Source: Magnetospirillum molischianum DSM 120 (GTDB lineage Bacteria; Pseudomonadota; Alphaproteobacteria; Rhodospirillales; Magnetospirillaceae). Taken from it: a stretch of 33,307 nucleotides of DNA. This document shows positions 1,060 through 27,923 of the stretch, piece by piece; within the stretch, counting starts at the first letter, position 1, and each line of letters begins with the position of its first letter. The position numbers and the translations under genes were made by a program. The DNA is taken from assembly GCF_000294655.1 (NCBI RefSeq), contig NZ_CAHP01000019.1, forward strand, positions 1-33,307, given 5' to 3'. Under the pieces are notes generated by a model. That model was not told the DNA's origin. It worked only from the letters and a program-made list of their open reading frames with translations, and did not search any database.

Positions 1060-1521
1060 CTAAACAACCTTCAGTGAGAATAAAGATGCGCCAATAATCC
1101 GGTCATCATTTAGATCGGGGGCAAAAGAACTGAACTTTTTAGCGTCAGGCGTAATAATCATAATTGTTATGATTCCACCATGAGGGTCGATTCTTCTGAC
1201 AATCGGCACGCTTATGCGCGAGGCATTATCAGAGTTTATTTTTGCCTCGATGGGTTCGCAGAAATCAATTGAAATGAAAATTGATTGACTCTCAAAATAT
1301 GGGAGTCCAGATATTGTGAAAATTATTGATTTTGCATTGACTTCCGGAAGTCTAATAGAGAAAATTGCTTGTCTTGATAATATTGCTCGATCTCCGCCGA
1401 ATGGAATTTGATTGCCAACAAGATGAACTCCTGACCTAAGGGCAAGAAAATAGAATAGTTCAGCGATAGAGTACTCAAATCCTATCCTTAATGTTATTAT
1501 AGGAGCGATTCCCTGGATGTA
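1060..1521 (-). CDS. Glycosyltransferase-associated C-terminal domain in the -1 frame (frameshift extension or remnant)
   Basis: A 153-codon open frame on the minus strand without a good start codon. It overlaps the end of the sulfotransferase-GT2 gene and lies exactly -1 relative to it. It reads like real protein: IGFEYSIAELFYF, then SIIFTISGLPYF, ISVPIVRR, IITPDAKKF and a C-terminus LNDDRIIGASLFSLKVV. The alternating hydrophobic strands and the closing pattern (P-x-S/A, D-x-R-x-x-G, L-x-S-L-x-V) resemble the beta-sandwich domain often appended to bacterial glycosyltransferases; that resemblance is from memory, not a search. Base composition is AT-rich like the upstream gene. Most likely the C-terminal domain of the upstream protein, reached by -1 slippage at 1521-1527 or cut off by an indel. 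Confidence 0.5.
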   Translation of the reverse strand, partial: YIQGIAPIITLRIGFEYSIAELFYFLALRSGVHLVGNQIPFGGDRAILSRQAIFSIRLPEVNAKSIIFTISGLPYFESQSIFISIDFCEPIEAKINSDNASRISVPIVRRIDPHGGIITIMIITPDAKKFSSFAPDLNDDRIIGASLFSLKVV

Positions 1522-3296
1522 TTTTTTGTTTTTAATTTTGATGCTGTGTTGGGCTCTGGAGCGGCATGTGTTCCGGTCACGCGGTTACGGAGCCGAATCC
1601 ACTCATCAATCTTGCTCGTGTAATCAGCCTGCCAACGTGCCTCAATCATCGCAGCGCGGGTAGGATCGAGCTTACCCTGAGCGCGCAGGCATGCGACGTC
1701 GCGCAGGCGTTGAGCCTTGACCATCACATACACAGCCGCCGTGTGCTCAAGAGCTGCCGGGTCGCTATTCAACGCCCCAATCATTCTGTGGCTGTTGTGG
1801 GAATGTTGACGCCACCCGACGAGAGGTCGTGCCAGATAGTGTTGGGATCCAAGCAATGTCGCCCGGAATCCGGTTAGAAGATCAAGGCCGTAAGGGCAGA
1901 GCTCCGGATCCAGAGGTTCAAATGTTTCGATAATCGAACGATGAAAAGCTGAAGAGGCTCCCAGCCAATAGGGGTTATTCTGTTGATCTGCCAAAGCGAT
2001 TGGGTCATCAAGAATAGCATCAGGCAAATTTGTATCCAACAAGCAGCTCGGGATACCTTCTTCGCTAATCAAAACTGCATTGGTGGTTACAAGCCTACAG
2101 TCTGGATGACTGTTAAAATGATTTATGATCACATCAAGGCGACCGGGTAACGTGATGTCATCACTGTCAGCCTGAATAATAATTGGCGCTTTTGAAAGCT
2201 TGATAATATGGGGCAACATACCATGCCCTATTGCAGTACCGTTTCTCATCAAGGTTGCAGTCACGTCAGGCCGGGTAGCCAGTCGATCCAAGACTACATT
2301 GAAGCTGTTGTCGGTGGACCCGTCATCGACCAGTATCAATTCAATATCCCGTCGCCATTGGGCAAACAGGCTGTCGAGTTGAGCGCCAATCCATTCGGCG
2401 TGGTTCCGTACAGGAATAAACACAGCCGCTACAAATGCCGGTCGTGGAGCTGCGGGCGGAGGAGGAGTAACCCACGTGCGGGGGGGAGGGGGAGCAGCCC
2501 AACGATTGATTGCTGCGGTAATTTCATTGTCTTTGTAATATGATTTAACTTCTGGATGAGTGTAAATTTCCTCCAGAGCAGCGCGAGGTAGGCGAAAACA
2601 ATTTTGGAGGGCGCGGTAGATATCTCCCGTAGACTTGGTGCCACCCTCATTCACATGAGGTAGCGTAACATCTATTTCCGGAAAAAGTTCGGCGAGTCCG
2701 GTTTCAATTGCTGTTGGCACATTCTCTTGCCGGAACAGAAGAAGTCGAACATTGTCCTTGAATAAAATAGAGTAGCCACGATCATGGTCAAATGGATGCG
2801 CTTTCAGATCGAAGCCAAAAGGTTTTTCAATCTCTTCCTGAAACCAGAGGAACGGGGCGCGAATCATTAATTCAAGCCAGGTTCGCACAGGATCTTCGTC
2901 ACTGGCATCGCGCAGCCATAGATCAGTGATGCGTGCAGCCATAATATCGGCTGTTGCCTGTGTTGAGTGAGCCATACAGTCCATAAAACAGGACTCAAAA
3001 TTTTGCATTGCAACTGACAAGGAACGAGCAATGGGATCTCGAACCCCACTAATGACCGTTACCTGTTCGCCGCTTGCCATGGCCTCGGCCAAGCGACTGG
3101 CAATCGCTGGCGCTTGATCATGAAAGAGGCGAAGGCCTCGCATCGCGTGATCATCTGAGGCAAAGATACGGGCCAGCGGCTCGTTCAACCAAGCGCCAAG
3201 ACCATGGGAGTTATAAACCTCTCCTGGAAAGCGTTCAGTTAAAAGCTGCGTGATGGAGGTTGTGCAAACCTTTGCATACGTCAATATCAAAATCAT
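1497..3296 (-). CDS. Sulfotransferase-like / GT2 glycosyltransferase fusion protein
   Basis: Two-domain enzyme for a surface glycan. Residues about 1-265 (from the chosen ATG) resemble a sulfotransferase or capsular-polysaccharide protein: AKVCTTSITQLL near residues 8-19 (phosphosulfate-loop-like) and SGVRDPIARS near 83-92 (RDP-type 3'-phosphate motif). A Pro-rich linker (about 268-286) leads to a GT2 domain: FIPVRNHAEW, VDDGSTDNS (about 323-331) and the DxD-like QADSDD (375-380). The ATG at 3296 is preferred over one 19 codons upstream because GAGGGAG lies 6 bases before it. It lies 131 bp downstream of the NeuD-like gene on the same strand, probably one transcript. The 3' end abuts a -1-frame continuation. 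Lower GC than the rest of the window suggests transfer. Sugar and sulfate acceptor are unknown. Confidence 0.82.
   Translation of the reverse strand: MILILTYAKVCTTSITQLLTERFPGEVYNSHGLGAWLNEPLARIFASDDHAMRGLRLFHDQAPAIASRLAEAMASGEQVTVISGVRDPIARSLSVAMQNFESCFMDCMAHSTQATADIMAARITDLWLRDASDEDPVRTWLELMIRAPFLWFQEEIEKPFGFDLKAHPFDHDRGYSILFKDNVRLLLFRQENVPTAIETGLAELFPEIDVTLPHVNEGGTKSTGDIYRALQNCFRLPRAALEEIYTHPEVKSYYKDNEITAAINRWAAPPPPRTWVTPPPPAAPRPAFVAAVFIPVRNHAEWIGAQLDSLFAQWRRDIELILVDDGSTDNSFNVVLDRLATRPDVTATLMRNGTAIGHGMLPHIIKLSKAPIIIQADSDDITLPGRLDVIINHFNSHPDCRLVTTNAVLISEEGIPSCLLDTNLPDAILDDPIALADQQNNPYWLGASSAFHRSIIETFEPLDPELCPYGLDLLTGFRATLLGSQHYLARPLVGWRQHSHNSHRMIGALNSDPAALEHTAAVYVMVKAQRLRDVACLRAQGKLDPTRAAMIEARWQADYTSKIDEWIRLRNRVTGTHAAPEPNTASKLKTKNTSRESLL
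1521..1527 (-). other. A AAA AAT slippery heptamer (candidate -1 frameshift site)
   Basis: In the sulfotransferase-GT2 frame the minus strand reads ACA AAA AAT ACA. The seven bases A AAA AAT fit the X XXY YYZ pattern. A -1 slip here bypasses the stop at 1497-1499 and enters the 153-codon frame exactly where it becomes protein-like. A second A run (AAAAA) lies just upstream. No downstream pseudoknot was worked out. Confidence 0.4.
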
Positions 3297-3427
3297 CAAA
3301 AACTCCCTCTCATCACGAACTCCTGAATGGATCTGCAATGCTTTTACCGGCATTCCATCATATCAATCACGGCACAAAGACAGGATTTTCAGGTCGCAGG
3401 TCCAAATATAACCGTGTGACTGCACAA

Positions 3428-4111
3428 TCACGACCCGTCATCATCGTGCGCTGATGACCTTGCAAAGGAGATGCGGCGTCTCACACGAACGCGCTGATCA
3501 GAATGGGCAATCGTCCCATCCGGCATGTCACGACGAACCACAGCGTTAACACCGATTCGGCAGTCGTCTCCAATCTGAACACCCGCGTGTATCCGCGCGC
3601 CCATTCCGATCATGCATCGCTTACCAAGCCTTGCGTCGCTGGCCACTGTAGCGTGAGGTAAGATAACCGTGAAGTCGCCGACGGATACGCGCGCGCCCAG
3701 GACATTGTGGGCAAAAAGATGAACATGCCGGCCAAGAGTAACGTCGGTTAAAATGGCAAAAGGACCAACATAACACCCTTCATTAAGCTTGGCGTAGGAC
3801 GAGACAACAGATGAAGGGTGGATAAATCTAGGCCATGTACAACCTTTAAGGGCTGGGCGTTCCCTGACGAGTTGTGCCTGCACGGGGTCTGCGATCGTCA
3901 AAAATGCATCGACGTTTGCACCCTCTATATCATCGATCAATTCAACTTGATGGCCTAAGACTTCCCCTTTCGGTTGATCGTCGACCAACTTAGAAACGCG
4001 AACATCGGCAGTCTCGAAAATGCATATGATATTTCGAGCGTTTCTACCAGCGCCAACGAGGAGAATCCCCTCAGGGGCGGGAGGGAACAAAGGATCTCTA
4101 TGGATAGACAC
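3428..4111 (-). CDS. NeuD/PglD-family sugar O- or N-acyltransferase (hexapeptide repeat)
   Basis: Acyltransferase of the PglD/NeuD type, which transfers an acetyl group to an amino-sugar or sialic-type sugar. The N-terminal part has a Rossmann-like strand GILLVGAGRNARNI and KLVDDQPKG; the C-terminal half is a left-handed beta-helix of hexapeptide repeats (VGPFAILTDVTLGRHVHLF, VGDFTVILPHATVASD, RIGVNAVVRRD). The usual catalytic His may be in FIHPSSVV or LFAHNVLG. The frame is open up to 4285, giving 58 more residues that do not look like the family. The GTG at 4111, with GAGAG just before it, gives 227 aa, close to normal; ATG at 4213 is an alternative. Its upstream region is interrupted by the IS3 element about 200 bp away, so its native promoter may be lost. 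Confidence 0.78.
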   Translation of the reverse strand: MSIHRDPLFPPAPEGILLVGAGRNARNIICIFETADVRVSKLVDDQPKGEVLGHQVELIDDIEGANVDAFLTIADPVQAQLVRERPALKGCTWPRFIHPSSVVSSYAKLNEGCYVGPFAILTDVTLGRHVHLFAHNVLGARVSVGDFTVILPHATVASDARLGKRCMIGMGARIHAGVQIGDDCRIGVNAVVRRDMPDGTIAHSDQRVRVRRRISFARSSAHDDDGS

Positions 4112-4314
4112 TTGACTCTCAACGGGCCTGTTTGAGTGAGCCTTTACAGGGCGATGATCGGTCGGGCTACGCCCTCCCTGTCTGCGGTCTCTGCTATCGG
4201 TAGCGAAAATCATGCTGTCACTGCCTAACTCAGTTATCAAAGTAAGCTTATCTGAAAAATTCATGGCTGCTGGCGGATGTGGCACTAGCGATCCTGTCCC
4301 GTGGAGTGGTGGTG

Positions 4315-4356
4315 TGGTAATCCCGCCATTTTTAGCGGGGGTTGGACATAGAATTC
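4315..4356 (+). repeat. IS3 element left terminal inverted repeat
   Basis: Starts TGGTAATCCCGCC and ends near GGACATAGAATTC. It matches the right end (5470-5514, reverse complement), which starts TGGTAATCCCCCC and has GGACGTAGAATT. Ten terminal bases are identical, and the inner block matches with one difference. Confidence 0.7.
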
Positions 4357-5214
4357 ATGCGGCTAATTTCAGTTTCTGGGCGGGTGTGATGCCGCCGATG
4401 CCCATATTGGGGCGGTCGTTGTTGTAGGTCCAGAGCCATTCTGTCGCGTGATCCTGCACCTCCGCGATGGTTTCAAAGAGGAACTGGCCCAGCCATTCAT
4501 GCCGGACCGTCCGGTTGTAACGCTCGACATAGGCGTTCTGCTGCGGCTTGCCGGGCTGGGGATGTGTTGGAGGCCGATGCCGCGCGTCTCGGCCCATTTC
4601 ATCAGCGTACCGCTGATATATTCGGGACCATTGTCGACCCGAATAGCGCCCGGTTTGCCGCGCCATTCGATGATCTGGTTCAGCACCCGCACGACCCGTT
4701 CGGCGGGCAGAGAGAAATCGACTTCGATGCCGAGTCCCTCCCGGTTGAAGTCGTCGAGCACGTTGAGCAGCCGGAAAGCCCGGCCGTCCTCCAGACGATC
4801 TGCCATGAAGTCCATCGACCAGACCTGGTTGGGGGCGTCTGGCACCGTCAGTTCGTCGGGCTTGTCGCGTTTGAGCCGCTTCCGGGGTTTGATCCGCAGG
4901 TTCAGTTCCAACGCGCGATAGATCCGATAGACCCGTTTGTGGTTCCAGCCATGACCCTGGATATTGCGCAGATACAGGAAGCAGAGGCCGAACCCCCAGG
5001 TCTTTCTGGCCTGGGTGAGCCCAATCAGAAGTTCGGCGATCTGCTCTTTCTCGTCGGAGAGCCTTGGGCTGTAGCGATAGCACGTCTCGCTGAGCCCGAA
5101 CGTCCGGCACGCCAACGAAATACTGATCCCTCGTCGCGCCACCGCTGTCTCGGCCATCTCCCGGCGCTGGGATGGCCGGGTTATTTTTTCCGAGAGCCTC
5201 GCGGAGCAATTCAT
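4355..5214 (-). pseudogene. IS3 orfB transposase (DDE), frameshifted
   Basis: The catalytic orfB protein. First Asp in [13 protein letters not shown], second in [11 protein letters not shown], and the Glu in [12 protein letters not shown]. The first two are in one frame (5214 to about 4560) and the Glu-containing tail is in another (about 4560 to 4355, ending QKLKLAA). The break is at a CCCC run (4558-4561, minus strand). Restoring one C would give [20 protein letters not shown] in a single frame. Together with the orfA error this copy cannot make a normal OrfAB without further slippage. Confidence 0.8.
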
Positions 5215-5443
5215 TCTGCATGCTGAGCTCGGCGAACATCTTCTTCAGCCGCCGGTTCTCGTCCTCCAGCCCCTTCATCTCCGAGATCATCGAGGCGTCC
5301 ATCCCGCCGTATTTCGCCCGCCATTTGTAGAACGTCGCGCTGCTCATCTGGTGCTCGCGGCACAGCGTCAGGACCGGGATACCGTCCTCCGCCTGACGTA
5401 GGATCCCCATGATCTGGGCGTCCGTGAACCGACTCTTCTTCAT
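5180..5443 (-). pseudogene. IS3 orfA (helix-turn-helix protein), stop lost
   Basis: Encodes the orfA DNA-binding protein: KKSRFTDAQIMGILRQAE start, HTH region, then a Leu-zipper-like segment [20 protein letters not shown] ending EALGK. In relatives orfA ends just after this point at an A7 run used for -1 slippage (frame GGA AAA AAA TAA). Here the run at 5184-5189 has six A residues, so the stop is out of frame and orfA runs on through a non-native frame as a 362-codon chimera. I infer a one-base deletion. A sequencing error in the homopolymer would look the same. Confidence 0.7.
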
Positions 5444-5469
5444 CCGAATCTCCTCGTTCGCAAGACCGA

Positions 5470-5514
5470 GAAAATTCTACGTCCGCATCCCTTTATTTCC
5501 AGGGGGGATTACCA
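5470..5514 (-). repeat. IS3 element right terminal inverted repeat
   Basis: Read on the minus strand from 5514 inwards it begins TGGTAATCCC, identical to the left end over ten bases. It lies just upstream of orfA, where IS3 elements carry their promoter. Confidence 0.7.
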
Positions 5515-5749
5515 CGCCAGACGATGCTCGATATCCCAGAACCCATGCTGAACGACCATTCCGCCCTCGCATCTCAACCATCAAGGATGGAATCATAAAT
5601 TCAGCCACGACGCCAGTTTCCGGAAGCATCCATGTTTCGACGAAGTGAGTAGGGACGTTCAAGTCGTTGGAAATAGGGTTATAGGTCGGCTCAAAATGAA
5701 TACGCGCAGGGTGAACCTGTCTTTCCTGGAAGCGAAAGGCTGATTGCAC
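5515..5749 (-). pseudogene. 5' fragment of a small unknown gene, cut by the IS3 element
   Basis: Minus-strand frame with a GTG start at 5749 that runs into the IS3 right end. The readable protein (about 78 aa) includes FRFQERQVHPARIHFEP and PTHFVETWMLPETG, then FMIPSL. The W-x-LPET peptide recurs in two other broken frames in this window (near 12.73 and 24.66 kb), so this is a member of a small repeated gene or element. I do not recognise the family. It is divergent from the STAND gene, with 99 bp between the starts. Confidence 0.4.
5611..5633 (-). repeat. Copy 1 of the dispersed TTCCGGAA-centred repeat
   Basis: 23 bases around the palindrome TTCCGGAA. Copy 2 (12720-12742) differs at one base of 23, and homology continues about 24 bases further left at lower identity. 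On the minus strand it encodes W-M-LPETG. It lies left of the STAND module in the same orientation as copy 2 on the right. Confidence 0.6.
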
Positions 5750-5810
5750 GATGGCGGGAAACGCCTTTTAGGAATCTGTTATAACATCTGCATCCCGCTT
5801 AAAGTTTGGA

Positions 5811-5831
5811 GGCACGACATCGGGTCGTGCC
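5811..5831 (+). promoter_or_regulatory. Inverted repeat just upstream of the STAND gene
   Basis: GGCACGAC, a five-base spacer, then GTCGTGCC: a perfect 8-bp dyad ending 17 bases before the ATG at 5849. It lies in the 99-bp region between two divergent starts. A TATAAC box about 30 bp upstream of it could be a -10 element. It could be an operator or an mRNA hairpin near the start. No clear Shine-Dalgarno sequence precedes the ATG. Confidence 0.4.
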
Positions 5832-5848
5832 CCTGATATATCGATTCC

Positions 5849-8800
5849 ATGGCAGACACGAACAATCTCGTCCGATATCGCAATGACGGTGACGACTTCC
5901 ACGTGTTGTGGACGGCCCGCCGGGCATTGAGGCTGCTTGATCCGACTACAGATCTGGTCGGAGTGTCGGTCGAAGGGGTGTCCGAGCGCGAAATCCACGG
6001 CAAGGAACTTGCTGAAGGATTATTGGTCGTCGATACCGCCGAGTATTACGGCTCGCAAGATATCCGTCAGGCCCGACAGATTGTCTACTGTCAGCTGAAA
6101 TACTCCACTCGGAACCCAGATGCGCCCTGGCCGGTTTCCGGCCTGGCCGGGACGCTGGAGGGCTTTGCCGCAAGCTTTCGCGAGAAAGTGTCCGAACTTG
6201 GTGCGCCGGAGGTTCTGGGGAAAATCCGGTTCCAGTTTGTGACCAATCGCCCGATTTCCCCCAGCGTGCTTGCCGCCTTCGAGGCATTCAGGCTTGGAAC
6301 GTCGCCGAAGGTGATCGACAAAGCCGTGCTGGACGCCAGAAATACACTTCTGAGCAAGACGAGCCTGTCCGAAGCTGAATTCCGGGACTTCGCAAGCCTG
6401 GTTCAGTTCCTGGCGGAGCAGCCCGATCGCCGAAGCCTCACGAACTTGTTGGCTCAGGACGCCCGACGGATATCGCTCGACAGTGACGCGACCCTGCGGA
6501 TGAAGGCCTTGGTCCAGGATCACACCACCTCTGACAAGGCTCGGGACAAGGTCATTGACCGTGAAAAGGTTCTGCTGGCCTTCAGAGTGACATCCGACGA
6601 TCTGTTCCCGGCCCCGGCCAAACTCGAACCCGCCGAGTCCGCGTTTCAGCGCACCCAAGAGAAGGATATCGCCTCCACGATCCTTCGGGCGGGATGGCCG
6701 GTCGTCATTCAGGCCCCGGGGGGCATCGGCAAGACCATACTGGCGCAGCGTTTGGGCGGGCACATGCCGCCCGGTTCTGAAACCATCCTGTTTGACGGCT
6801 TTGCCGCCGGAGATTACCGCAACTACCGAACCTACAGGCACCGTGCGGCCCGCGGAGTCCCCCAGATTGTCAACCAACTGGCGGCCAAGGGGCTGTGCGA
6901 CCTGCTGTTGCCGCAAAATGGGTTGTCGGAACAAACCTATCTGCAAGAGCTGTGGCGCAGGCTTGGACAAGCCGCCGAGACCGTGCAAGCCCAGTCCCCC
7001 GATGCCGTGGTTTTGCTGATTATCGATGCCGCCGACAATCTGGGAATGGCGGCCGAAGGCGCGAGTGATAGCAGTTTCGCCGAGGCCTTATTACAGGAAG
7101 CGCCGCCGCAGGGGTGCCGCATCGTGGCCCTGGCCCGCCCTCACCGGGTGGAGCAGTACCTGCGTCCAAGGCAGGAGGCCATCTCCATTTACCTCCAGCC
7201 GTTTTCCGTCGCGGAAAGCGGGCAGTTACTTCGGACAAAGTTTCCCGAGGCATCAGACGAGCAGGTCGCCCTCTTCCACCATTTCACCGACTGCAATCCG
7301 CGCGTCCAAGCCAACGCCCTGCGTGTGGCAAGCGATCTGGCCGCTTTGTGCGAAAGCCTTGGGCCGATGGTAGAAACCGCCGAGACGCTGGTCAAAGGAC
7401 AACTCGACTCCGCATTCCACAAAGTCCTGCGCGAACAGGCGGTGGGTGACGAATTCGATCGCCTGGGTGCCGCCCTCGCCATGTTGCCGCCGCCCGTTCC
7501 GCTCACGACGTTGGCGCAGGCATCAGGACTTACGGAAGACGCAATCCGTAGCTTCGTCGCTGATTTCGCCAATGGACGTCCCATTCTGATCCGCAACGAC
7601 GCGGTCCAATTCCAAGACGAACCGACGGAAACCTGGTTCAAAGACAAATTCGCTAATGCTACAGCGCATTGGGAGACCATGGCCGACCGGCTGGAGCCCT
7701 CTGCCGACACAGACGCCTACGTCGCGGCTATTCTGCCCATCGTCCTGCATCAGGCCGGTCGTCATGATCGGTTGATGGAGTTGGCCCTTGGTGACGCATC
7801 ACCCGAGGCGGCGGACCCGGTGGAGCGGCGGGCGATTGTCCTGCAGCGTGTAACCTACGGGCTCAGGGTTGCCGCTTCGCGCGGACGAACCACGGACACC
7901 GCCAAACTGCTGGTTCGAGCAGCCGAGGAAGTTGCCGCAGATGACCGGCAGGTCGCGTTTCTCAATCGTCATGCGGATCTGATCGGCCATTTGGCCGCTC
8001 CCGAAGTTGTCGCGGAGCATGTTTTCCGACATCGCCCTTGGCGTGAAAGTGGAAAGGCCTTCATCGCCTGCGCAGCCATGCTCTCAGCCAAACCATTGGG
8101 TTTGCCGGAAGCCAGACAATATTTCCGCCTCGCCATGCAATGGCTGAGAGATTGGGCCGCAGAGAGGCGGGCACGCCCAGATGATCATTCTCGTGAAGGG
8201 CTAAAGCCTGCGGAAGTCGCTCTCTATGCGGCGGTCATTTCCAGACTGAATGGGCCCCTGGATATGGCGCGTTTCCTTGGCTATTGGTCAGGGGATATGC
8301 CGTTCCTGGCGGGGGGCGTCGTAGCAACGCAGATGCTGGACAACGGCGACCAGAATATCCTTGAGGATCTCCTCGCCGACGAAGGAGCCCCGCTTCTGGT
8401 TCGTTTGGCGGTCAATAGGGAACTGGTCGAGCGGTGCATCACCCCGCCCGCTGACTCAACACAGCGCCTGCTGGATGAGCTTCTCGTCGAGCCCACTCCC
8501 ATCGAACTGCCGGACCAGCTCGATGGCAGCCCCATTTTCCCTGCCATTGCCTCGGTCGCCGAGGCAGCGATGCGAGCCAAATGTCCGAGTGTCAGCATTC
8601 AAGACCTTTTGGCCCGTTACCCGGTGCCGCATGAACGGGCATACACCCATTACGATCCGGGAGGTAAGCGAAACGCCCTTCTGCGGATGGCATCCATGGC
8701 GGCGATCATGGAAGGGCGTGAGCTCACCATAAAGGATGTTGTGCCCAGCCGCCTGCGCGAAACCTGGGAGAAGAACCGAGGGCACGGGCGGGACGAGCGC

Positions 8801-11800
8801 GAGTTTTCGGATTACTACAGCGCTCTAATCCAGTGGCATATGCTCCGTGAGCGGGCGATCGCGCGGGAAATCTTGGCAACGGACGTCCCGCCAGCAGCAT
8901 TCCAAGAGCAATACGAGGGTGCAGGTCCCGCTCGCTATTCGAACAATCGAGGTGTTGCCCTATTGCGCATGGAGGCTCTGCTCTGGGCCGATGGAGATGA
9001 TGGCTGCGCCGCTGACTTGGAAAATTGGGCAAAGACTGAACAATTGGCCTTTCCAAGCGTGATATGGACGCGTCTGGCTGAGTTGGCCGCATCGCGGCCG
9101 ACTCTCGCCGAATTCGCCCTTCTGTGTGCGGGCCGAGCCCGCGAGGCAACGGTAAGCGAGCGCCAGAACGCCGGCCAAACAGCCGATGATTTGATGGATA
9201 TCGCCAGGGCGCTCCTGCCCCTGGGGCCGACCGAGGCTGGCCATTACCTGCAAGAGGCCCTCGACCATGTGGGGCGGCTGAGCGACGAAATACACCCACA
9301 CCTGGATACTCTGCTTACCCTGGCGGAATGTGCTGGAACCGGCAGGTCTTCGGCACCAGAGGCGTATCGTTTGGCTCGGGCTGCCGAACTTCTGCATGCC
9401 TATAACGATCACAAATTCCCCTGGGAAAGGGTCACGACATCCGTTGCTCGACTGGATTTGCCCTCCGCCTTTACCGCAATCGCCCGTTGGGATGACCGGG
9501 GCGTCGAGGCCGTTCACTGGACGATATCGAGCCTTGCTCCGATGGCGATGCAGCTTGGCCGTCTTTCCCCGGAAACCCTCGTTGCGCTGCATGCCTTTGG
9601 TGGGTATTGGGACGGCAAAGACCGTGCCAAGCAGCTGTTTGCCGGTTTGCCTAACAAGGCGCGGCGTCAGACCGCTCTCGACATCCTGGTGTCCGACCAG
9701 GAACTCGACCGGATGGCGGCAGGAATGTCCTCCAAAGAGCTTCAGGCTGAAGCACGCCGCTACGGCTTGGTAAATGCGCGTCTGGAGTCGCTTACGACCC
9801 TGGGGCAAGACTCGGATCGGGAAGATAAAAAGGCGGCATCATTTTCGGTCGTAGAGAAAGAGCTACCGGATTTGGACAAGTTGCTGGAGGGCTTGGATCC
9901 GGGAACTGCCGCCGGCATCAACCAAGCCATATCCCGTTGGCGGGATGGTCGAGGCGGTATTGATATCGGTGACGTCTTTGCGGCGATGAGGGAACGTGTT
10001 CTCCGAAACAAGCGTGCCGACCATATTGGTGCTTTGGCCAATGGCGACCTTGAATTCGGCAGTTGGGCCATCGAGGCGCTGGAAGGGTGTCGGAAGGATT
10101 GGGGGTATGTCCCGAGTGTACAGGCCGCACTTAGGGCGGCGGTCAGAACCGTCATAGATAAAAAAGCAGAGGATTTGCTTCCGTTCATGGGCTGGGATCG
10201 GGATGACATCGGGCGATGTGTCGCCGTGGGTGGGGAAAGTCGCCCCCAACTGATCCGGCTCATGACGAATTCCATCTCCCAGCGGGTGCGCGACATTCCT
10301 ACCCGCGAATTGTTTCGATTCGTGAATCTTCTCGCGAAAGAATCCCTCTCAAAAGATGAGTCCCAGGAGGTTCTGACCTACGCCCTCGACCGGTTGGAAG
10401 GCCCCCTCCGTGATCAGGATGGCGATGGTCCCTGGTGCGATGACCTTGCCCCTCCGGCTTCGGATGAGGAAGCCGTTGCTGGGTTTCTGTACGCAATGCT
10501 GGCCTCGCCGGAGGCGGAAACCCGATGGCGGGCCGCCCATGCGGTGGTCCGATTAGGGCGCCTTGGCCAGTCTTCGCTGCTGGACGCCGTGGTGAAACTC
10601 TTGCCCCGGACGGAACTGCCCGCCTTCATCGGCGCCGGACTGCCCTTCTATGCTCTCCATGCCCGATTGTGGCTCCTGATCGCCCTGGCACGGTTGGCGG
10701 AGGACGCTCCTCAAGCCGTGATGCCCTATCGGGAAACGCTCATTTACTGGGCTTTGAACGCCGATGAGCCTCATGTCCTGATCCGCCATTTTGCCGCCCA
10801 GGCGGTTTTGGCCTTTGCGGTTCCGGGAGAGGCGGAGCTGGACGACGACGTCATCAAGCGACTGAGATCCGTCAATTCCAGCGCCATGGAGCCGGTGGCG
10901 TCAGATCAGACGCACTACACCGGGTATGATCTCCGACGAGGCCAAGGGCGGAGTCTGATGCCCTATGAGTTCGACGGGAATTGGATTGCCCCACTGGGAA
11001 ATGCCTTCGGCATTCATCCCGATGACGTGTCGGAGAGGGTTGAGAAATGGATCTGCGAACGCTGGGGTATTTCACTTCCAGACCACTATTTTGAGCCACG
11101 AAGCGGCAAGGAGCGACGCCATGGCATCGGGCGGGAGCAGTTATCGACTTTCGATTCCTACCGTTTCTATGTGTGCTGGCATGCACTGCTCTGCGCGGCG
11201 GGGGAACTGGTCCAGCAACTCCCTCCCGCACTCCGATACGAGGAGAATGGCTGGAAGGATTGGATCCGCCGCGTGGACCTGACGCGAGGCGATGGTCGCT
11301 GGCTTTCCGACCGGCGGGATCCGGTGCCGCTCAACCTCTGCCCGGAAATGGGAGAGGTAGGCTACAACCCGGAAAAGAGGGAGATTTGGGCATATTCCAT
11401 CGGGGCCGCTGACCTTGATGCCGTCCTGGGACTGAACGAAACACCGACGAATGAACTGGTCGTAGATGCCTGGTGGTTTCAGAGCCGCTACGAAAACAAA
11501 CAGCGTGTCCGCGTTAATTCGGCAATGGCTTCGCCCGCGACCAGCATGGCACTTCTCCGGACCTTACAGACGGCGGAGAATCTCGACGAGGATAGGGACG
11601 AGGTCCCAGACATCTTCAAGCTGAGAAACCTTGTCACCTCCACGGAACGGGACCGAGAGCTGGACGGCTTGGACGTGTTCGCCGGTGAGGTTTCCTGGCC
11701 ACCCCCAAAACCTAAACGCGAAATCCAACAACTCTTTGAGTTGCTGCCCGACAAGGATTTCCGGAATTGGTATCGGGGAACAATCCCTGTCATGCGGTCG

Positions 11801-12082
11801 GAAATTTGGGGCGCCCGTGTGGATGAACGACGCGGTGATTCGTCCAACAGCGGGCGCCGTGTGTCGGTCACGACACCATTCCTGAAAGAAATTCTTTCTC
11901 ATTTCGGCTGCGATCTGATCATCGAGGTGGAGCTCGAACGTGAATACGAAGACCAACCAGGACGGTACGATCACGAGCACATCGCCAATCGGTCCTACAA
12001 CCGAATCTACCTCCTGCGAGGCGCAACCGGACGCCTCCATACCCTTCACGGATCTGTGCGGCTTTGGCCGGAAGCTGATTGA
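5849..12082 (+). CDS. Giant STAND NTPase with N-terminal DUF4297/Cap4-like nuclease (Avs/AVAST-like defence protein)
   Basis: A 2077-residue protein with the build of anti-phage STAND sensors. Residues about 10-150 look like a PD-(D/E)xK nuclease of the DUF4297/Cap4 type: DGDDFHVLWTARRALRLLDP, SVEGVS (E42), LLVVDTAEYYG (D62) and YCQLKYST (Q82-x-K84), then PW-x-SGL. The NTPase core follows: Walker A QAPGGIGKT (288-296) and Walker B VVLLIIDAADN (387-397). The remainder (about 450-2077) is helical and repeat-rich; HEAT-like helices are visible near 1540-1660, and a conserved-looking block runs from about 1690 (YDLRRGQGRSLMPYEFDG) to the end. In Avs proteins the C-terminal repeats bind a phage protein, the NTPase oligomerises and the nuclease cuts DNA; applying this here is inference. 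A small gene follows directly. Confidence 0.85.
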   Translation: MADTNNLVRYRNDGDDFHVLWTARRALRLLDPTTDLVGVSVEGVSEREIHGKELAEGLLVVDTAEYYGSQDIRQARQIVYCQLKYSTRNPDAPWPVSGLAGTLEGFAASFREKVSELGAPEVLGKIRFQFVTNRPISPSVLAAFEAFRLGTSPKVIDKAVLDARNTLLSKTSLSEAEFRDFASLVQFLAEQPDRRSLTNLLAQDARRISLDSDATLRMKALVQDHTTSDKARDKVIDREKVLLAFRVTSDDLFPAPAKLEPAESAFQRTQEKDIASTILRAGWPVVIQAPGGIGKTILAQRLGGHMPPGSETILFDGFAAGDYRNYRTYRHRAARGVPQIVNQLAAKGLCDLLLPQNGLSEQTYLQELWRRLGQAAETVQAQSPDAVVLLIIDAADNLGMAAEGASDSSFAEALLQEAPPQGCRIVALARPHRVEQYLRPRQEAISIYLQPFSVAESGQLLRTKFPEASDEQVALFHHFTDCNPRVQANALRVASDLAALCESLGPMVETAETLVKGQLDSAFHKVLREQAVGDEFDRLGAALAMLPPPVPLTTLAQASGLTEDAIRSFVADFANGRPILIRNDAVQFQDEPTETWFKDKFANATAHWETMADRLEPSADTDAYVAAILPIVLHQAGRHDRLMELALGDASPEAADPVERRAIVLQRVTYGLRVAASRGRTTDTAKLLVRAAEEVAADDRQVAFLNRHADLIGHLAAPEVVAEHVFRHRPWRESGKAFIACAAMLSAKPLGLPEARQYFRLAMQWLRDWAAERRARPDDHSREGLKPAEVALYAAVISRLNGPLDMARFLGYWSGDMPFLAGGVVATQMLDNGDQNILEDLLADEGAPLLVRLAVNRELVERCITPPADSTQRLLDELLVEPTPIELPDQLDGSPIFPAIASVAEAAMRAKCPSVSIQDLLARYPVPHERAYTHYDPGGKRNALLRMASMAAIMEGRELTIKDVVPSRLRETWEKNRGHGRDEREFSDYYSALIQWHMLRERAIAREILATDVPPAAFQEQYEGAGPARYSNNRGVALLRMEALLWADGDDGCAADLENWAKTEQLAFPSVIWTRLAELAASRPTLAEFALLCAGRAREATVSERQNAGQTADDLMDIARALLPLGPTEAGHYLQEALDHVGRLSDEIHPHLDTLLTLAECAGTGRSSAPEAYRLARAAELLHAYNDHKFPWERVTTSVARLDLPSAFTAIARWDDRGVEAVHWTISSLAPMAMQLGRLSPETLVALHAFGGYWDGKDRAKQLFAGLPNKARRQTALDILVSDQELDRMAAGMSSKELQAEARRYGLVNARLESLTTLGQDSDREDKKAASFSVVEKELPDLDKLLEGLDPGTAAGINQAISRWRDGRGGIDIGDVFAAMRERVLRNKRADHIGALANGDLEFGSWAIEALEGCRKDWGYVPSVQAALRAAVRTVIDKKAEDLLPFMGWDRDDIGRCVAVGGESRPQLIRLMTNSISQRVRDIPTRELFRFVNLLAKESLSKDESQEVLTYALDRLEGPLRDQDGDGPWCDDLAPPASDEEAVAGFLYAMLASPEAETRWRAAHAVVRLGRLGQSSLLDAVVKLLPRTELPAFIGAGLPFYALHARLWLLIALARLAEDAPQAVMPYRETLIYWALNADEPHVLIRHFAAQAVLAFAVPGEAELDDDVIKRLRSVNSSAMEPVASDQTHYTGYDLRRGQGRSLMPYEFDGNWIAPLGNAFGIHPDDVSERVEKWICERWGISLPDHYFEPRSGKERRHGIGREQLSTFDSYRFYVCWHALLCAAGELVQQLPPALRYEENGWKDWIRRVDLTRGDGRWLSDRRDPVPLNLCPEMGEVGYNPEKREIWAYSIGAADLDAVLGLNETPTNELVVDAWWFQSRYENKQRVRVNSAMASPATSMALLRTLQTAENLDEDRDEVPDIFKLRNLVTSTERDRELDGLDVFAGEVSWPPPKPKREIQQLFELLPDKDFRNWYRGTIPVMRSEIWGARVDERRGDSSNSGRRVSVTTPFLKEILSHFGCDLIIEVELEREYEDQPGRYDHEHIANRSYNRIYLLRGATGRLHTLHGSVRLWPEAD

Positions 12083-12092
12083 TGCGCTACAG

Positions 12093-12521
12093 TTGGAACC
12101 GACAGACACACTCGGCCGGTGGATGGCTTATTATCTTGCGGAACGTCTGTTGGATGCTGAACGAGCGTCAGGCCCGGAGAAGGCTAGCCTGGAGCGAGAG
12201 CTCTTCGAGCAGATTCTCCAACTCTGGAAACACCGGGGAAACTGGCCGACACATCAACGCCCGTTTCGCGAAACGGATGACTTGGCCGACAAGCTGAGGA
12301 CTTTCATCGACCGTTCGCGCCCCTGGTATTTCGCGCAAAATGCCAGGGCTTCAAATCACTCTCCCGAAGACTGGATTGATAAGGCGCAGGCACTCGACGT
12401 CGCTGCCCGCGATCTCATCGCTTGGTGCATGAATTATGCTGTCGCGGAGACTTCGGGTGACGATGCCGCGTGGGCTGACGATCACGTCGCCCAACAGCTT
12501 GAAATAATCATCGCCCTATGA
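12093..12521 (+). CDS. Small helical partner protein of the STAND NTPase
   Basis: Follows the STAND gene so closely that they must be co-transcribed. The frame is open from a GTG at 11940, but that would overlap the big gene by 143 bases with low-complexity sequence. Protein-like sequence begins around FGRKLIDALQLEPTDTLGRW. The TTG at 12093 (142 aa) is the start I prefer; it has no strong ribosome site and may depend on coupling to the upstream stop at 12080-12082. Motifs: DTLGRWMAYYLAERLLDAE, ELFEQILQLWKHR and a later AARDLIAWCM helix. There is no membrane segment. I recall similar short RWMA-x-Y / LWKHR proteins beside large STAND genes, but cannot cite a family. Likely an accessory or regulator of the defence protein. 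Confidence 0.65.
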   Translation: MEPTDTLGRWMAYYLAERLLDAERASGPEKASLERELFEQILQLWKHRGNWPTHQRPFRETDDLADKLRTFIDRSRPWYFAQNARASNHSPEDWIDKAQALDVAARDLIAWCMNYAVAETSGDDAAWADDHVAQQLEIIIAL

Positions 12522-12861
12522 GGGTGTACTTATAAATGATTCCAGGTGAACAGGGGATGACCGATCAAAGTGCCGACGATCCGCTCCAGAGCGGCATCGT
12601 TCCGGCCGACCGTTCCCAGAATAGCGGTCACCGCGACCGAACCCAGAACCCGATCTGACCCGCTATCACGCTGCCCCTCTACACCCCGAGAGCCCATGGA
12701 ATCACGAACCCGACATCCGCGCCAGTTTCCGGAAGCGTCCATATGAGCTGATTTGTTTTGGGCCTTATCGCCGCAGAACGTATTCGCGAGGCGATAGCCT
12801 CGTGCCGTATTGAAGCAAAGTAAAACGTCGTCCGTGAAAAATTCGGTTCAGCCCTCCAGGA
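12522..12861 (-). other. Intergenic remnant region between defence module and IS5
   Basis: 340 bases without a convincing gene. On the minus strand short frames remain: one reads LIWTLPETGADVGFVIPWAL then stops (same peptide as the fragment at 5515-5749), and another reads SVAVTAILGTVGRNDAALER to a stop at 12530. A 6-bp hairpin (CGAGGC, GATA, GCCTCG) lies at 12787-12802. The region looks like debris of the same small element found on the left side of the module. Confidence 0.5.
12720..12742 (-). repeat. Copy 2 of the dispersed TTCCGGAA-centred repeat
   Basis: Differs from copy 1 at one base of 23. Same orientation as copy 1, so the two copies flank the STAND module (about 7.1 kb apart) as direct repeats. 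On the minus strand it encodes W-T-LPETG. Confidence 0.6.
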
Positions 12862-14346
12862 TCAGACGGGCTGAGCGTTCAGGTTGTGCCTTTCGGCCCT
12901 GAGGACGGCCCGGATCATGGACAACAAAAGCCTCAGCCAGCGGAGCAGGAGGCGGAAGTTGTGTCCGGCGCCGCAGAGGATGGCGTTGATGCGGTCGCCG
13001 CTCTTTCCCTTGAGGAAGTTCCGCCCGAGAAGGCCGTCGTTTTTCATGTGGCCGATGACGGGTTCGATGGCGCTGCGGCGGCGCAGTTCGCGGCGAATGG
13101 CGTTGGTCGGGGCCTTGTTGCCGGAGATCCAGACCTTGAAGCGATCGAGGCCGTGGCCGCGATAGCCCTTGTCGACATAGATGCGGCGGGCGGTGACGCC
13201 GGTCCAGGCTTCGGTGGCCTCGACGGCAGCCTTGAGGGTATAGCCGTCATAGGGGTTGCCGTGGCGAGCGTCGATATGCAGGACGAAGTGACCTCCGGCG
13301 GCCGGGCGGTTGGTGGTGGTGACGGTGACCTTGCAGCCGAATTCGTAGGGCTTGGCGGCCTTGCCCTTGCCGATGCATTCGACCTCGGGGGCGTGGAGGG
13401 AATAGACCTTCGGCAAGGGATCGCGGCGTTGTTGGGTCATCACCCGTTCGGCCAGCCACAGGGGGCGCTTGAAGGCGTCGGTCAGGGCCTCGTTGCCGGC
13501 GATCTTGCGGCGAATGTCGCGGATCACCCGCCCCGGATAGGTCTTCAGCCGCCGCAATTCGCGGCGCGCCCGGTTGAACTGCTTGGCGTGGGCGTGTAGC
13601 GGCCCTGCTTCATCGCCGCCCGCTTGCCGACGCGGGCGTGGCTCTGGCGAAGGCCGATGCCCCACTCTTGGGCCAGCGCCACCAACTTTTCCCGGGCCCG
13701 CTGCATCAGCTTGGCGTCGGTCGGGAAGGTCACCGCCTTGGGCTGAACGGTGGTATCGACCGTCACCCGCTCCATGTCTTCGGCCTGAAGAGCGCCGGCC
13801 CGGTGGGCGGCGGCCAGGCTCTCCTGCACCAGGGCCGACAGGTCATCGGCGCCGATGCGCTGACGCCAGCGGGTCATCGAGGAGCGGTCCACCGGCAGGG
13901 CGTGCTGGAAGAAGGGTTCGCCGCAGAAATACTGGAAATACGGATCGCAGACCCAGCGATCGCACACCGCCTCGTCAGAGACGGCCGTACATGTGCTTGA
14001 GCAGGTGCAATCCCACCATCAGTCGGGTCGGAACACCCGGGCGCCCCGTTTCCGCGTAAAGCGGCGCGAACCGCTCGTCGAAAAAGCCCCAGGCGACCAA
14101 ACCCGCCAGCCGGACCAAGTCGTGGCGCAGGTTGATGATCTGGTCGAGCCGCGACCGGAACAGGTCGCCCTCGGTCTGCGGCGGTCTCTTGTGCGGCGTC
14201 ATCTCTCCTCCCCGAGCGGCTCTGAGAGAATGCAATCACAACCGATGGGGGGCGTAAAGGGGCAAGGTTGGGATACGAAATTTGCCGGGAATCGGGGGGA
14301 CACGACGCCGAATCTGGCAAATTCGATTACTTCGCCACAGCCCTAA
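12845..14346 (-). mobile_element. IS5-family element (decayed), right border of the defence module
   Basis: About 1.5 kb around the broken transposase. I could not find a convincing pair of terminal inverted repeats, so both ends are estimates. The right end is probably near GGCAAATTCGATTACTTCGC (14316-14335). Confidence 0.5.
12862..14235 (-). pseudogene. IS5-family transposase, two frameshifts
   Basis: Three consecutive minus-strand fragments make one IS5-group DDE transposase. Fragment 1 (14235-13975): MTPHKRPPQTEGDLFRSRLD to LKHMYG. Fragment 2 (about 13967-13600): VSDEAVCDRW, DPYFQYFCGEPFFQH and TVDTTVQPKAVTFPTDAK (first Asp). Fragment 3 (about 13600-12862): HAKQFNRARRELRR, ECIGKGKAAKPYEFG, VDKGYRGHG (second Asp) and RRRSAIEPVIGHMK (Glu). 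All catalytic residues are present, but the frames are broken near 13970 (one extra base) and near 13600 (two extra bases, or one missing). It is therefore inactive unless these are sequencing errors. Confidence 0.85.
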
Positions 14347-14784
14347 ACCCAGGTGACAGGCCGGGCTTGGGGTTATTCACGGACGACTAAAACATCCTGT
14401 CCATAACGATTAGCATCGGCGCCTTCTCTGGCTCCGAGTCTGTGTGTGAGGTGCCTGAGGCAGACTGACAATTATCTCTGTTAAAACAATAGTAATGAAT
14501 GCTACATTTTAATGTATTAACTATGTTTTTATTTAAATTACTAATTTATTTATTAATTTCTATTAAAAATAGAATATGTAAGCAGATTTAATATTTATTA
14601 AGTATTTTCCGTATCTATAATTTTTTTCATGAAACGGGCAGCGTATTTAAGCGAAAATCAATTCGCGGAGTGATAAACCGATGGGAAACCCCAAGCCTAT
14701 CGGTCGGAGATGCAGTCCCCGATCCGTTGAGGCGGGAACAGTTGGTCGCTACGTTGTGGTCTCGGCCTTGCGCACGTTTCAGCC
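14346..14784. promoter_or_regulatory. Very AT-rich intergenic leader of the P-type ATPase operon
   Basis: 439 bases without a gene. Bases about 14461-14640 are far richer in A+T than any other stretch of this window, with runs such as TTTATTTAAATTAC and TAATTTTTTTC. This is a likely site for promoter elements and for binding of an AT-specific nucleoid protein. A hairpin follows closer to the gene (14677-14704). No known riboswitch consensus was recognised. Confidence 0.5.
14677..14704 (+). promoter_or_regulatory. Leader hairpin before the P-type ATPase
   Basis: ACCGATGGG, ten-base loop, CCTATCGGT: nine base pairs with one G-U. It starts 108 bases before the ATG. The loop carries CCCC, which could pair with nearby GGG. 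There is no downstream T run, so it is not a terminator in this direction; it may be part of a structured 5' leader. Confidence 0.3.
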
Positions 14785-25220: not shown

Positions 25221-26933
25221 TTATCTGTCTGTCCGAATTTCCCGGCCCGGCTCTTTCGATCTGCTCACCGAGGGGCGACAGGCAACAACGGTGAACATCG
25301 GCGCCAGCATCCCATTGGGTCCGTGTTGATGGTGGATGTGGACCTCTGCGTTGGGGAAACCGAGGCAGCCCAGGGCTTGAACGAAGAAGCGCGGCGAAAA
25401 AGACCACCACGTATCCAGTACCGCTGCGCCCTCGGCATCGGGGATCAGCCGCATCACCGGAAGTTCCCCCAGCGTGGAATCGTACAGGTCGGTTACGATG
25501 ATCGTTTCGTTTACCCGCGCGGCCACGCTTTCCAGGATGGAAAACGGCGATCGCGTGTGGAGCAGGATCGCGGCGAGGACCCCGATATCGAACCGTCCGA
25601 TGGCGGCGGGAACAGCCTCGGGAACGGTTTCGATCAGGCGGGTCTGCGACTTGAGATGGTGGTGCATGTACCAGAAGGAATTGCGGACACGAATGATCCC
25701 CTGCAAGAAGGAGGCGCGCCATGCATCCCGGTCAATGCCCTGATGAGGGAAAACGTCCCACAGGCGTTTCAGGGGCGGCTCTACGGCGGTGACGCTGGCG
25801 CCAGCCTGCTCCATATGGAACGTCAGATAGCCGCTGGCCGGCCCGATCTCCAGCACGCTTTTCCCCGCGAAATCGACAGCCCCGAGATAAGCGGCCGTGT
25901 TCGTCCGCAGATCCCACTGCCCGGCGATGACCCCCTCGGGTGTCTCCATGGTGTGATAGAAATCGCAGGCGGAAAGCGGCGGTTGAGGCCGCTCGATCAC
26001 GGTGAACGGCGCGTCGGGCGAGGATTCCGAACGAGGCGGGCGTTTCCCCTCCTTGCGCCACGCCATGCCGGTCCAGTCGATTGGCTCCAGCGGGGTGGTG
26101 ATCCCCCGTTCGGTTCGGAAATCCTCCACCGCCTGGCGGCACGGCGGCAGGGCACCGTAATCGTCGATGATAATGAAGCCGCCGGGCACCACCCTGTCGT
26201 AAAGGGTGAGAAGGGCATCCATGGTTGATTCGTATAGATCGCCATCCAGACGCAACAAGGCAATCGGGCCGGTCGGCGCCTGCGGCAGGGTGTCGCGGAA
26301 CCATCCCGGCAGAAATCGAACCTGATCGTCGAGCAGATCGTAGCGAGCGAACAACGCCTTCACCCGTTCCTCGGACACCGCCAGGATGGGAGCCCGCCGC
26401 TTGCTCAGATCGTAATCCTTATCTTCCTGGACCGAGGGGGCCGGCACACCGCGGAAGGAATCCGCGACCCATACGATGCGGTCGGTCACACCGTGGGCGG
26501 CAAGATGCGCCCGCATGAAAATGGTGGCGCCGCCGCGCCAGACGCCGGTTTCGATCATGTCACCGGGAATGTCTTCGGCCAGGATAGCATCCAGGCAGAA
26601 ATGCAGATGGTCCAACCGCTGGCAGCCGATCATGGTGTGGACGTGTTCGGAAATGTCGCGCGGATCGTAGGGCCGCCCGCCGTCTTCCGGCCAGAGCACC
26701 ATATTGCCGTCGTTGCGCACCGCCACAAGGCGGGCCATGATATCGGGGCGTCGGGCCGCAATGTCGCGGATGACCTCGGCGTCCGGTTCCGCTCCCTGGC
26801 GGCGGCACAGCAGCAGATAATGCAAAACGGCCTCCAGTTCGAGATAGAGCTCGTTGAGCAGCGATCGCTTGATCAGCCGGAGATATCTGTCGGCAAGAGA
26901 CGCATCGGTACCGAGAGAGGGATAGAGTGACAT
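25221..26933 (-). CDS. Two-domain methyltransferase: TylF/MycF-like plus class I SAM methyltransferase
   Basis: 570 aa. N-terminal part (about 1-290) is a TylF/macrocin-O-methyltransferase type enzyme: MIETGVWRGGATIFM (126-140), LRLDGDLYEST (228-237, metal/SAM Asp pair), IIIDDYGALPPCRQAV. The C-terminal part (about 325-560) is a second SAM methyltransferase: SVLEIGPASGYLTFHM (motif I, 359-374) and ETIIVTDLYDSTLGE. TylF methylates sugar hydroxyls; two joined domains could methylate one glycan at two positions. ATG 26933 has GAAAGG upstream. It is divergent from the next methyltransferase, with 75 bases between the starts. It lies in a glycosylation cluster. Substrate is not known. Confidence 0.82.
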   Translation of the reverse strand: MSLYPSLGTDASLADRYLRLIKRSLLNELYLELEAVLHYLLLCRRQGAEPDAEVIRDIAARRPDIMARLVAVRNDGNMVLWPEDGGRPYDPRDISEHVHTMIGCQRLDHLHFCLDAILAEDIPGDMIETGVWRGGATIFMRAHLAAHGVTDRIVWVADSFRGVPAPSVQEDKDYDLSKRRAPILAVSEERVKALFARYDLLDDQVRFLPGWFRDTLPQAPTGPIALLRLDGDLYESTMDALLTLYDRVVPGGFIIIDDYGALPPCRQAVEDFRTERGITTPLEPIDWTGMAWRKEGKRPPRSESSPDAPFTVIERPQPPLSACDFYHTMETPEGVIAGQWDLRTNTAAYLGAVDFAGKSVLEIGPASGYLTFHMEQAGASVTAVEPPLKRLWDVFPHQGIDRDAWRASFLQGIIRVRNSFWYMHHHLKSQTRLIETVPEAVPAAIGRFDIGVLAAILLHTRSPFSILESVAARVNETIIVTDLYDSTLGELPVMRLIPDAEGAAVLDTWWSFSPRFFVQALGCLGFPNAEVHIHHQHGPNGMLAPMFTVVACRPSVSRSKEPGREIRTDR

Positions 26934-27008
26934 CGTGGCCTTTCAAGAAGAGGTCAGCCCGTGGTGGTGAACCGTTGGACCGGAATGCTCGGGGGACAGG
27001 AGCCCGCC

Positions 27009-27923
27009 ATGACTGAAATCAGCAACAGGATCGATGCGGTCTGGGGAGATCCGGCGGCGTGGGAGGCCGCCGGTTGGCAATGGGAGCGGCTTCCGGAGAT
27101 CCGGCGCATGGTAAACCGCCATGTTACCGGCGACGAGGCGATCGATCCGCTCGGCTGGTTCTTCCGGCGCGTCGCCAGGGAACGGCCCTTGCCGCTGGGC
27201 CGAGCCCTGGTTCTCGCCTGTGGCAGCGGCGGCCTGGAACTGAGGCTGATCGGCGAGGGCATGGTCCGCGAAATCGTTGCGGTCGATCTCTCGCCACGAT
27301 CTCTGGAGGTGGCACGGGCGACGGCGCGGCAGAGCGGGGTGACTGGGATCGAGTATCGCTGCTGCGACATGAACGCGCTGGATGTCGCCGGCCCCTTCGA
27401 CCTCGTGATCGGCAGCAGCGCCCTGCATCATTGCGAAAATCTTGAAGGTATTTTCGACGCCATCCGTCGGATTCTGGTACCGGGCGGCTGGTTCTTCCTG
27501 AATGATTATGTCGGCCCCAATCGCTTGCAATACGATGCCGCTCAGGTAATGCAGGTTAATCGCCTTCTGCAGCTTCTTCCGGATCATTTGGTGGTGAACG
27601 AGGCTGGCTTCAGCCGACGCGGCTTCCGGCGCGCTCCGGTCGCCGAGGTGGTTGCCTTCGATCCCAGCGAGGCTCCCCGCTCCGCCGATATCCTGCGGGT
27701 GATGCGGCAGAGCTTGGCGGTGGAGACGGTGCGGCCCTACGGAGGCAACCTGCTGTACCTGACATTGTCCAATCTGGCGCAAAATTTCGATGTCGAGCAT
27801 TCGGGCGATGCCGTCGCGCTGGACTATCTGAAACTGCTCATCGAGGCCTCCGATCATTGGCGGGTGACGCGGCCGGGCCAGGATCATTTCGCCGTTGCCG
27901 TCGCCCGCCAGCCCATCAGCTGA
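27009..27923 (+). CDS. Class I SAM-dependent methyltransferase
   Basis: 304 aa. Motif I ALVLACGSGGLELRLI (about 66-81), acidic end of strand 2 VDLSPRSLEVA, motif II-like CDMNALDVAGPFDLVIGSSA, then HHCENLEGIFDAIRRILVPG (Methyltransf_11/25 type). The frame begins at a GTG 48 bases upstream, but ATG 27009 has AGGAG 7 bases before it and is preferred. The 3' end overlaps the 3' end of the convergent minus-strand methyltransferase by 40 bases. It is flanked by two methyltransferases and a giant glycosyltransferase, so a glycan target is likely. Confidence 0.8.
   Translation: MTEISNRIDAVWGDPAAWEAAGWQWERLPEIRRMVNRHVTGDEAIDPLGWFFRRVARERPLPLGRALVLACGSGGLELRLIGEGMVREIVAVDLSPRSLEVARATARQSGVTGIEYRCCDMNALDVAGPFDLVIGSSALHHCENLEGIFDAIRRILVPGGWFFLNDYVGPNRLQYDAAQVMQVNRLLQLLPDHLVVNEAGFSRRGFRRAPVAEVVAFDPSEAPRSADILRVMRQSLAVETVRPYGGNLLYLTLSNLAQNFDVEHSGDAVALDYLKLLIEASDHWRVTRPGQDHFAVAVARQPIS

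Follow-up and report, generated by a model that had tools for sequence, protein, structure and literature searches.

Does the pair of genes at 5849-12521 of this contig belong to a known defence system or to a subtype of its own, and are both of its genes intact? The window, i.e. the whole stretch of DNA that was analysed, is the entire contig C19 (33,307 bp) of a genome in 61 contigs (3.8 Mb). A sequence-only reading had described the pair as an Avs-like module framed by insertion sequences (IS), with a nuclease, a STAND NTPase and a long sensor half whose C-terminal block might define a subtype. Judged by its sequence, the locus represents a known system in divergent form, and its partner gene is damaged. 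We consider it very probable that it is a divergent AVAST type 3 locus in which Avs3a would act as a terminase-sensing, NTPase-switched nuclease, the activity of Avs3b being doubtful. The features involved are the following.

5849..12082, + strand: avs3a, 2077 aa, complete; nuclease, STAND NTPase and helical sensor (PADLOC, 8dgc, dN/dS)
5849..6568, + strand: Cap4-like PD-(D/E)xK nuclease, residues ~1-240 (E42, D62, Q82, K84; conservation; model of residues 1-710)
6569..7348, + strand: STAND/NACHT NTPase, residues ~241-500 (Walker A at 289-296, Walker B from 389)
7349..12079, + strand: winged-helix-like region and helical sensor, residues ~501-2077 (identity by region; colinear with SeAvs3)
11940..12521, + strand: avs3b, 193 aa, C-terminally truncated (PADLOC Avs3b; 260-aa relatives; GGAG before GTG)
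12502..12503, no strand: junction at which DNA homology to full-length avs3b ends (blastn against L042 and L044; alignment)
4316..5513, - strand: IS3 element, ends GGTAATCC and GGATTACC, without target duplication; incidental neighbour
12827..14387, - strand: IS5-like element, with 6-bp target duplication TAAAAC at 12821-12826 and 14388-14393; incidental neighbour

Elsewhere in the window, carbohydrate-modifying genes are found at 1497-4285 and 25221-32865 (glycosyltransferases, a NeuD-like acetyltransferase and a TylF-like methyltransferase), a 1373-aa multi-domain glycosyltransferase among them, and the left end of the contig carries an IS66 transposase.

Assignment to the Avs3 family

The PADLOC Avs3a profile matched the 2077-aa protein end to end (residues 5-2066, 1326 bits) and the small ORF was recognised as Avs3b (E 3.9e-29, 100 bits). 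At E values up to 1 each gene gave a single PADLOC match, Avs3a and Avs3b respectively, and none of the other Avs models matched. When the PDB sequences were searched, SeAvs3 (PDB 8dgc) covered residues 6-2071 of Avs3a with an E value of 5e-267, the remaining five matches, none better than E 0.055, being ABC-type ATPases. The best NCBIfam matches agree with both assignments, at scores (1416 of 2800 bits for Avs3a and 103 of 200 for Avs3b) that do not reach the equivalog cut-offs, which set a threshold for naming and not for mechanism. For this reason we have filed the pair under the Avs3 family, where it is divergent, and not as NCBI's equivalog, and with such scores the trigger may differ as well. 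These profile and sequence matches make it nearly certain that the avs3a product is the sensor-nuclease Avs3a known from AVAST type 3. The Avs architecture expected beforehand is thus narrowed, by PADLOC, NCBIfam and 8dgc, to Avs3 with an Avs3b partner.

Domains and conservation of Avs3a

The residues named in the sequence-only reading for the nuclease (E42, D62, Q82 and K84) and the Walker motifs are exactly where they had been placed, with APGGIGKT at 289-296 and LLIIDAADN from 389. Q82, K84, G294, K295, D393, A394 and D396 are present in all 22 aligned Avs3a proteins, and E42 and D62 in 21 of them, the exception being a gap in the copy of a Shewanella plasmid. Every one of the 22 matched Avs3a in both PADLOC and NCBIfam, two of them with a weak match to LmuA as well. 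Pfam detected the NACHT domain in Avs3a with E 8.8e-6 and 26.1 bits, slightly below its cut-off of 26.7.

Residues 1-710 were modelled with a mean pLDDT of 76.6, the start of the nuclease (residues 1-60) being weak. The top Foldseek match of this model was 8dgc (E 1.7e-46), an entry with the title 'Avs3 bound to phage PhiV-1 terminase', followed by a STAND protein and Apaf-1, with Avs4 at 5.4e-6 and EfAvs5 at 6.2e-6. The superposition on 8dgc gave a TM of only 0.53 and an rmsd of 23.6, perhaps because the orientation of the domains in the model is off; the placement relative to other Avs types comes from PADLOC and from the order of the Foldseek matches. Neither a non-nuclease N-terminus nor a non-STAND NTPase was found, the model fitting 8dgc best. 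By its residues and its fold match to 8dgc the N-terminus is a Cap4-like PD-(D/E)xK nuclease, and by its Walker motifs, the NACHT match and the fold ranking the central part is a STAND/NACHT NTPase.

The protein is also under selection, with dN/dS values for avs3a (2077 codons) of 0.22 against Paramagnetospirillum caucaseum and 0.19 against genome G089, to whose copies Avs3a is 85% and 83% identical, respectively. Calculated by segment, all 12 values were 0.32 or below. Together with the full-length match to a curated family, these ratios put the 2077-aa protein far outside what chance would give.

One way to look for a new subtype is to follow the identity along the protein. Compared with the Avs3a of a Klebsiella plasmid it was 37% in residues 1-240, 41% in 241-500, 34% in 501-700, 26% in 701-1000, 21% in 1001-1300, 15% in 1301-1500, 41% in 1501-1676 and 29% in the last 401. 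The variable part of Avs3a is therefore mainly the middle of the sensor, most of all residues 701-1500. The length of the sensor half, pointed out earlier as a peculiarity, turned out to be ordinary (2077 aa for the whole protein against a median of 2101.5 among 22 proteins). A stronger proposal would make the locus an Avs subtype in its own right, set apart by its C-terminal sensor block and moving as a module between IS elements; it would agree with the scores below the NCBI cut-offs and with the IS elements on both sides. However, the C-terminal block aligns through the end of SeAvs3, and the last 401 residues were not the region of lowest identity in any of the 18 relatives compared (18 of 21). 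A new C-terminal subtype is ruled out by this region-by-region comparison, and the combined proposal appears hardly credible, also in the light of the flanks described below.

A truncated Avs3b

The sequence-only reading had a small gene following directly. The gene is there, but rather than following avs3a it has its first 143 bp within it, and it is shortened. Its start is a GTG at 11940, inside avs3a and preceded by GGAG, and a start codon is located at the same offset of avs3b in P. caucaseum, M. fulvum and G089. Such an overlap is usual in the family, e.g. 107 bp in the Klebsiella plasmid. In both P. caucaseum and M. fulvum Avs3b has 260 aa, and the window DNA matches their avs3b (blastn and alignment) through base 12502 and not beyond. 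Since homology to the 260-aa copies ends there, about 70 residues of Avs3b are missing and 193 aa are left, of which the final few are unrelated to the relatives. The junction at 12502 may be a fault of the assembly. Avs3b thus keeps its core and has lost its C-terminal part, which makes its activity doubtful.

A possible, though rather unlikely, explanation is that we see a copy of the same family in decay, in which the system was disabled when Avs3b lost its end while avs3a is still undamaged. Besides the truncation at 12502, the state of the close copies is in line with decay: only one of the four, that of P. caucaseum, has both genes at full length, avs3b is broken in two (in G089 homology stops at 12117, which leaves about 59 residues of Avs3b) and avs3a is broken in a third, being in two pieces in M. 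fulvum; IS elements are also found near both sides of the pair. On the other hand, the frame of avs3a is fully open with its key residues conserved, and what Avs3b has lost is its poorly conserved part, in which conservation reaches 70% in 2 of 62 columns, compared with 23 of 151 in the core that was kept. The dN/dS of avs3b (187 codons) was 0.26 in the comparison with P. caucaseum; the value for M. fulvum, 0.44, rests on few changes.

The model of Avs3b (five sequences) was all helical with a mean pLDDT of 54.8; with a best Foldseek E of 0.89 we claim no fold match, and the best match among PDB sequences (O43-rpxdoc-EK1_B, E 0.021) is likewise too weak for a fold claim. Pfam gave weak matches, each in one of 14 members. 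No function of Avs3b was found in the open-licence literature, where the two papers containing the string 'avs3b' are unrelated as far as their titles and the beginnings of their abstracts tell.

Insertion sequences, flanks and mobility

IS3 and IS5 elements on both sides had been taken as the frame of a module. Both are present, but they lie outside 5849-12521 and are incidental neighbours. The IS3 element has 18 matching stretches in the genome, its own included. Among five other copies compared, the one with both ends visible shows a 4-bp duplication (ACTT); the flanks of the window copy are GTGT and ACGC, not a duplication, so one flank has probably been rearranged. For the IS5-like element there are nine matching stretches, its own included, and a second copy has a 6-bp duplication (TTCCTA), comparable with TAAAAC in the window. 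The IS5-like element is an independent insertion about 300 bp beyond avs3b. A composite transposon was considered and rejected, the two elements being different and only the right one having a duplication of its own. The different families of the elements, and the separate insertion of the right one, argue equally against the IS-bounded subtype module.

The flanks of the relatives contradict an IS-bounded module as well. DNA homology to M. fulvum extends over 5631-12502, that to P. caucaseum over 5864-12502 and that to G089 over 5793-12117; in these three close relatives it is thus confined to the gene pair and no more than 218 bp in front of it, and the four genomes carry the pair at unrelated places. 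The locus has probably moved between genomes, as suggested by the near-equal identity of the same-genus copy (85%) and of one from a different family within the order (83%), from which we infer horizontal transfer. A 23-bp direct repeat with one mismatch flanks the gene pair (5611-5633 and 12720-12742); pieces of the left flank recur at six other places of the genome and a 22-bp piece of the right one at one other place.

Distribution of Avs3a and association with Avs3b

Avs3a matches were found in 10 of 149 genomes in the search for relatives, in 4 of 385 genomes of the class sample with the NCBIfam model (none above the cut-off) and, when the PADLOC model was used, in 8 of 398 of the phylum sample, where two are short fragments, the own genome being included in each count. 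The locus extends the range of Avs3 to the magnetic spirilla. On plasmids there were 19 records with an Avs3a match, of which 14 were examined and 12 entered the alignment, while 50,697 phage records contained no Avs3 match. Scanning viral contigs with the Avs3a alignment gave two loci and with the Avs3b alignment one further locus, with Avs3a and Avs3b adjacent; since the Avs3a scan had overlooked it, the viral-contig scans are incomplete.

Avs3b was detected in 4 of the 398 phylum-sample genomes and adjoined Avs3a in all four. In the Avs3a tree, 13 of the 22 rows have a downstream Avs3b, a label that includes L043 (~59 residues left) and the truncated window copy; L047 was scored as lacking it despite a short fused remnant. 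Alignment and tree omit L044 and L027 (both with avs3a split between two frames), L051 and L052 (G106 fragments), the distant, split and TIR-bearing L061, and the loci from viral contigs and the phylum sample. Only two changes of state are needed on this tree, and none of 500 shuffles was as low (mean 7.2). Twelve of the 13 Avs3b-bearing rows fall into one group (support 93/94, not starred), six rows lacking Avs3b into a second (100/100), and the other four comprise one row with and three without it. The presence of Avs3b follows the Avs3a tree, which suggests that the pair shares a task in one branch of Avs3a and that Avs3a is independent in another. A branch wholly without Avs3b also speaks against decay as the consequence of the shortened gene. 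This tie of Avs3b to one large branch, along with the natural losses of its end, provides material for finding its role.

Some relatives depart from the common arrangement. In L047 (4894-11346, G147:C109), near a contig end, a short Avs3b-like stretch is fused in frame to the C-terminus of Avs3a. The distant relative on the Aliarcobacter plasmid pM830MA (L061) is split over two genes (4275-6326 and 7610-10228), with a TIR in place of the nuclease before the NTPase in the first and a sensor-like part in the second. On the Shewanella baltica plasmid (L053) the start of Avs3a (4221-10523) is unaligned and without Pfam match, and a small ORF (3922-4215) ends just upstream; either a split gene or a different N-terminus may be the reason.

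Proposed mechanism and resident phage genes

Avs3a would be a single-chain pattern-recognition receptor. What its helical sensor grips is most likely the large subunit of the terminase of an infecting phage. Once the terminase is bound, the STAND NTPase would oligomerise and switch on the N-terminal nuclease, which would cut DNA so that the infection is aborted. Terminase sensing, oligomerisation and DNA cutting are inferred for this protein by analogy with SeAvs3 and from the literature. PMC12931631 describes Avs1-Avs4 nucleases that kill the cell upon recognising the large terminase, the portal or Ksap1, and PMC12799240 mentions Avs triggering by terminase and oligomerisation. As a conjecture, Avs3b, a small helical protein, probably assists Avs3a in the branch that retains it. 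It is also conceivable, if quite unlikely, that the branch of Avs3a found in the magnetospirilla is on its way to independence from Avs3b, and that the short Avs3b is a core naturally split from its C-terminal tail. If so, these copies and the Avs3b-less branch would make the job of Avs3b testable, e.g. whether Avs3a is bound by the core, with the tail limiting or tuning it.

The host itself carries a potential trigger: another of its contigs, C28, encodes a large terminase (TerL, C28:31622-32140) and a portal, together with a head protease, a major head protein and a tail sheath (nine ORFs scanned; cluster in G000:C28, L086 8880-18372). This phage gene set could act as a self-trigger of the host's own Avs3. 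Terminase_6N had no match in the host genome; the same search was positive in Caulobacter and other controls.

Comparison with known systems

The closest known system is AVAST type 3, represented by SeAvs3 (8dgc) and by the Avs3a/Avs3b pairs of the plasmids NZ_CP089387 (Klebsiella variicola) and NZ_CP049829 (Janthinobacterium lividum), with which the window protein is colinear over its full length. The catalytic and Walker residues are the same, and so is the small overlapping Avs3b gene downstream. The window protein differs in being only ~30% identical overall, and the pair in falling below the NCBIfam equivalog cut-offs and having a truncated Avs3b. Much nearer in sequence is the Avs3 of Paramagnetospirillum caucaseum SO-1 (NZ_AONQ01000058), with its 85% identical Avs3a, the same overlap and the same avs3b start, yet its Avs3b is full length at 260 aa and its flanking DNA is unrelated. 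Avs4 (PDB 8dgf) and Avs5 (PDB 9jap) have the STAND core fold in common with Avs3a, but as fold matches (E 5.4e-6 and 6.2e-6) they are far weaker than 8dgc (1.7e-46).
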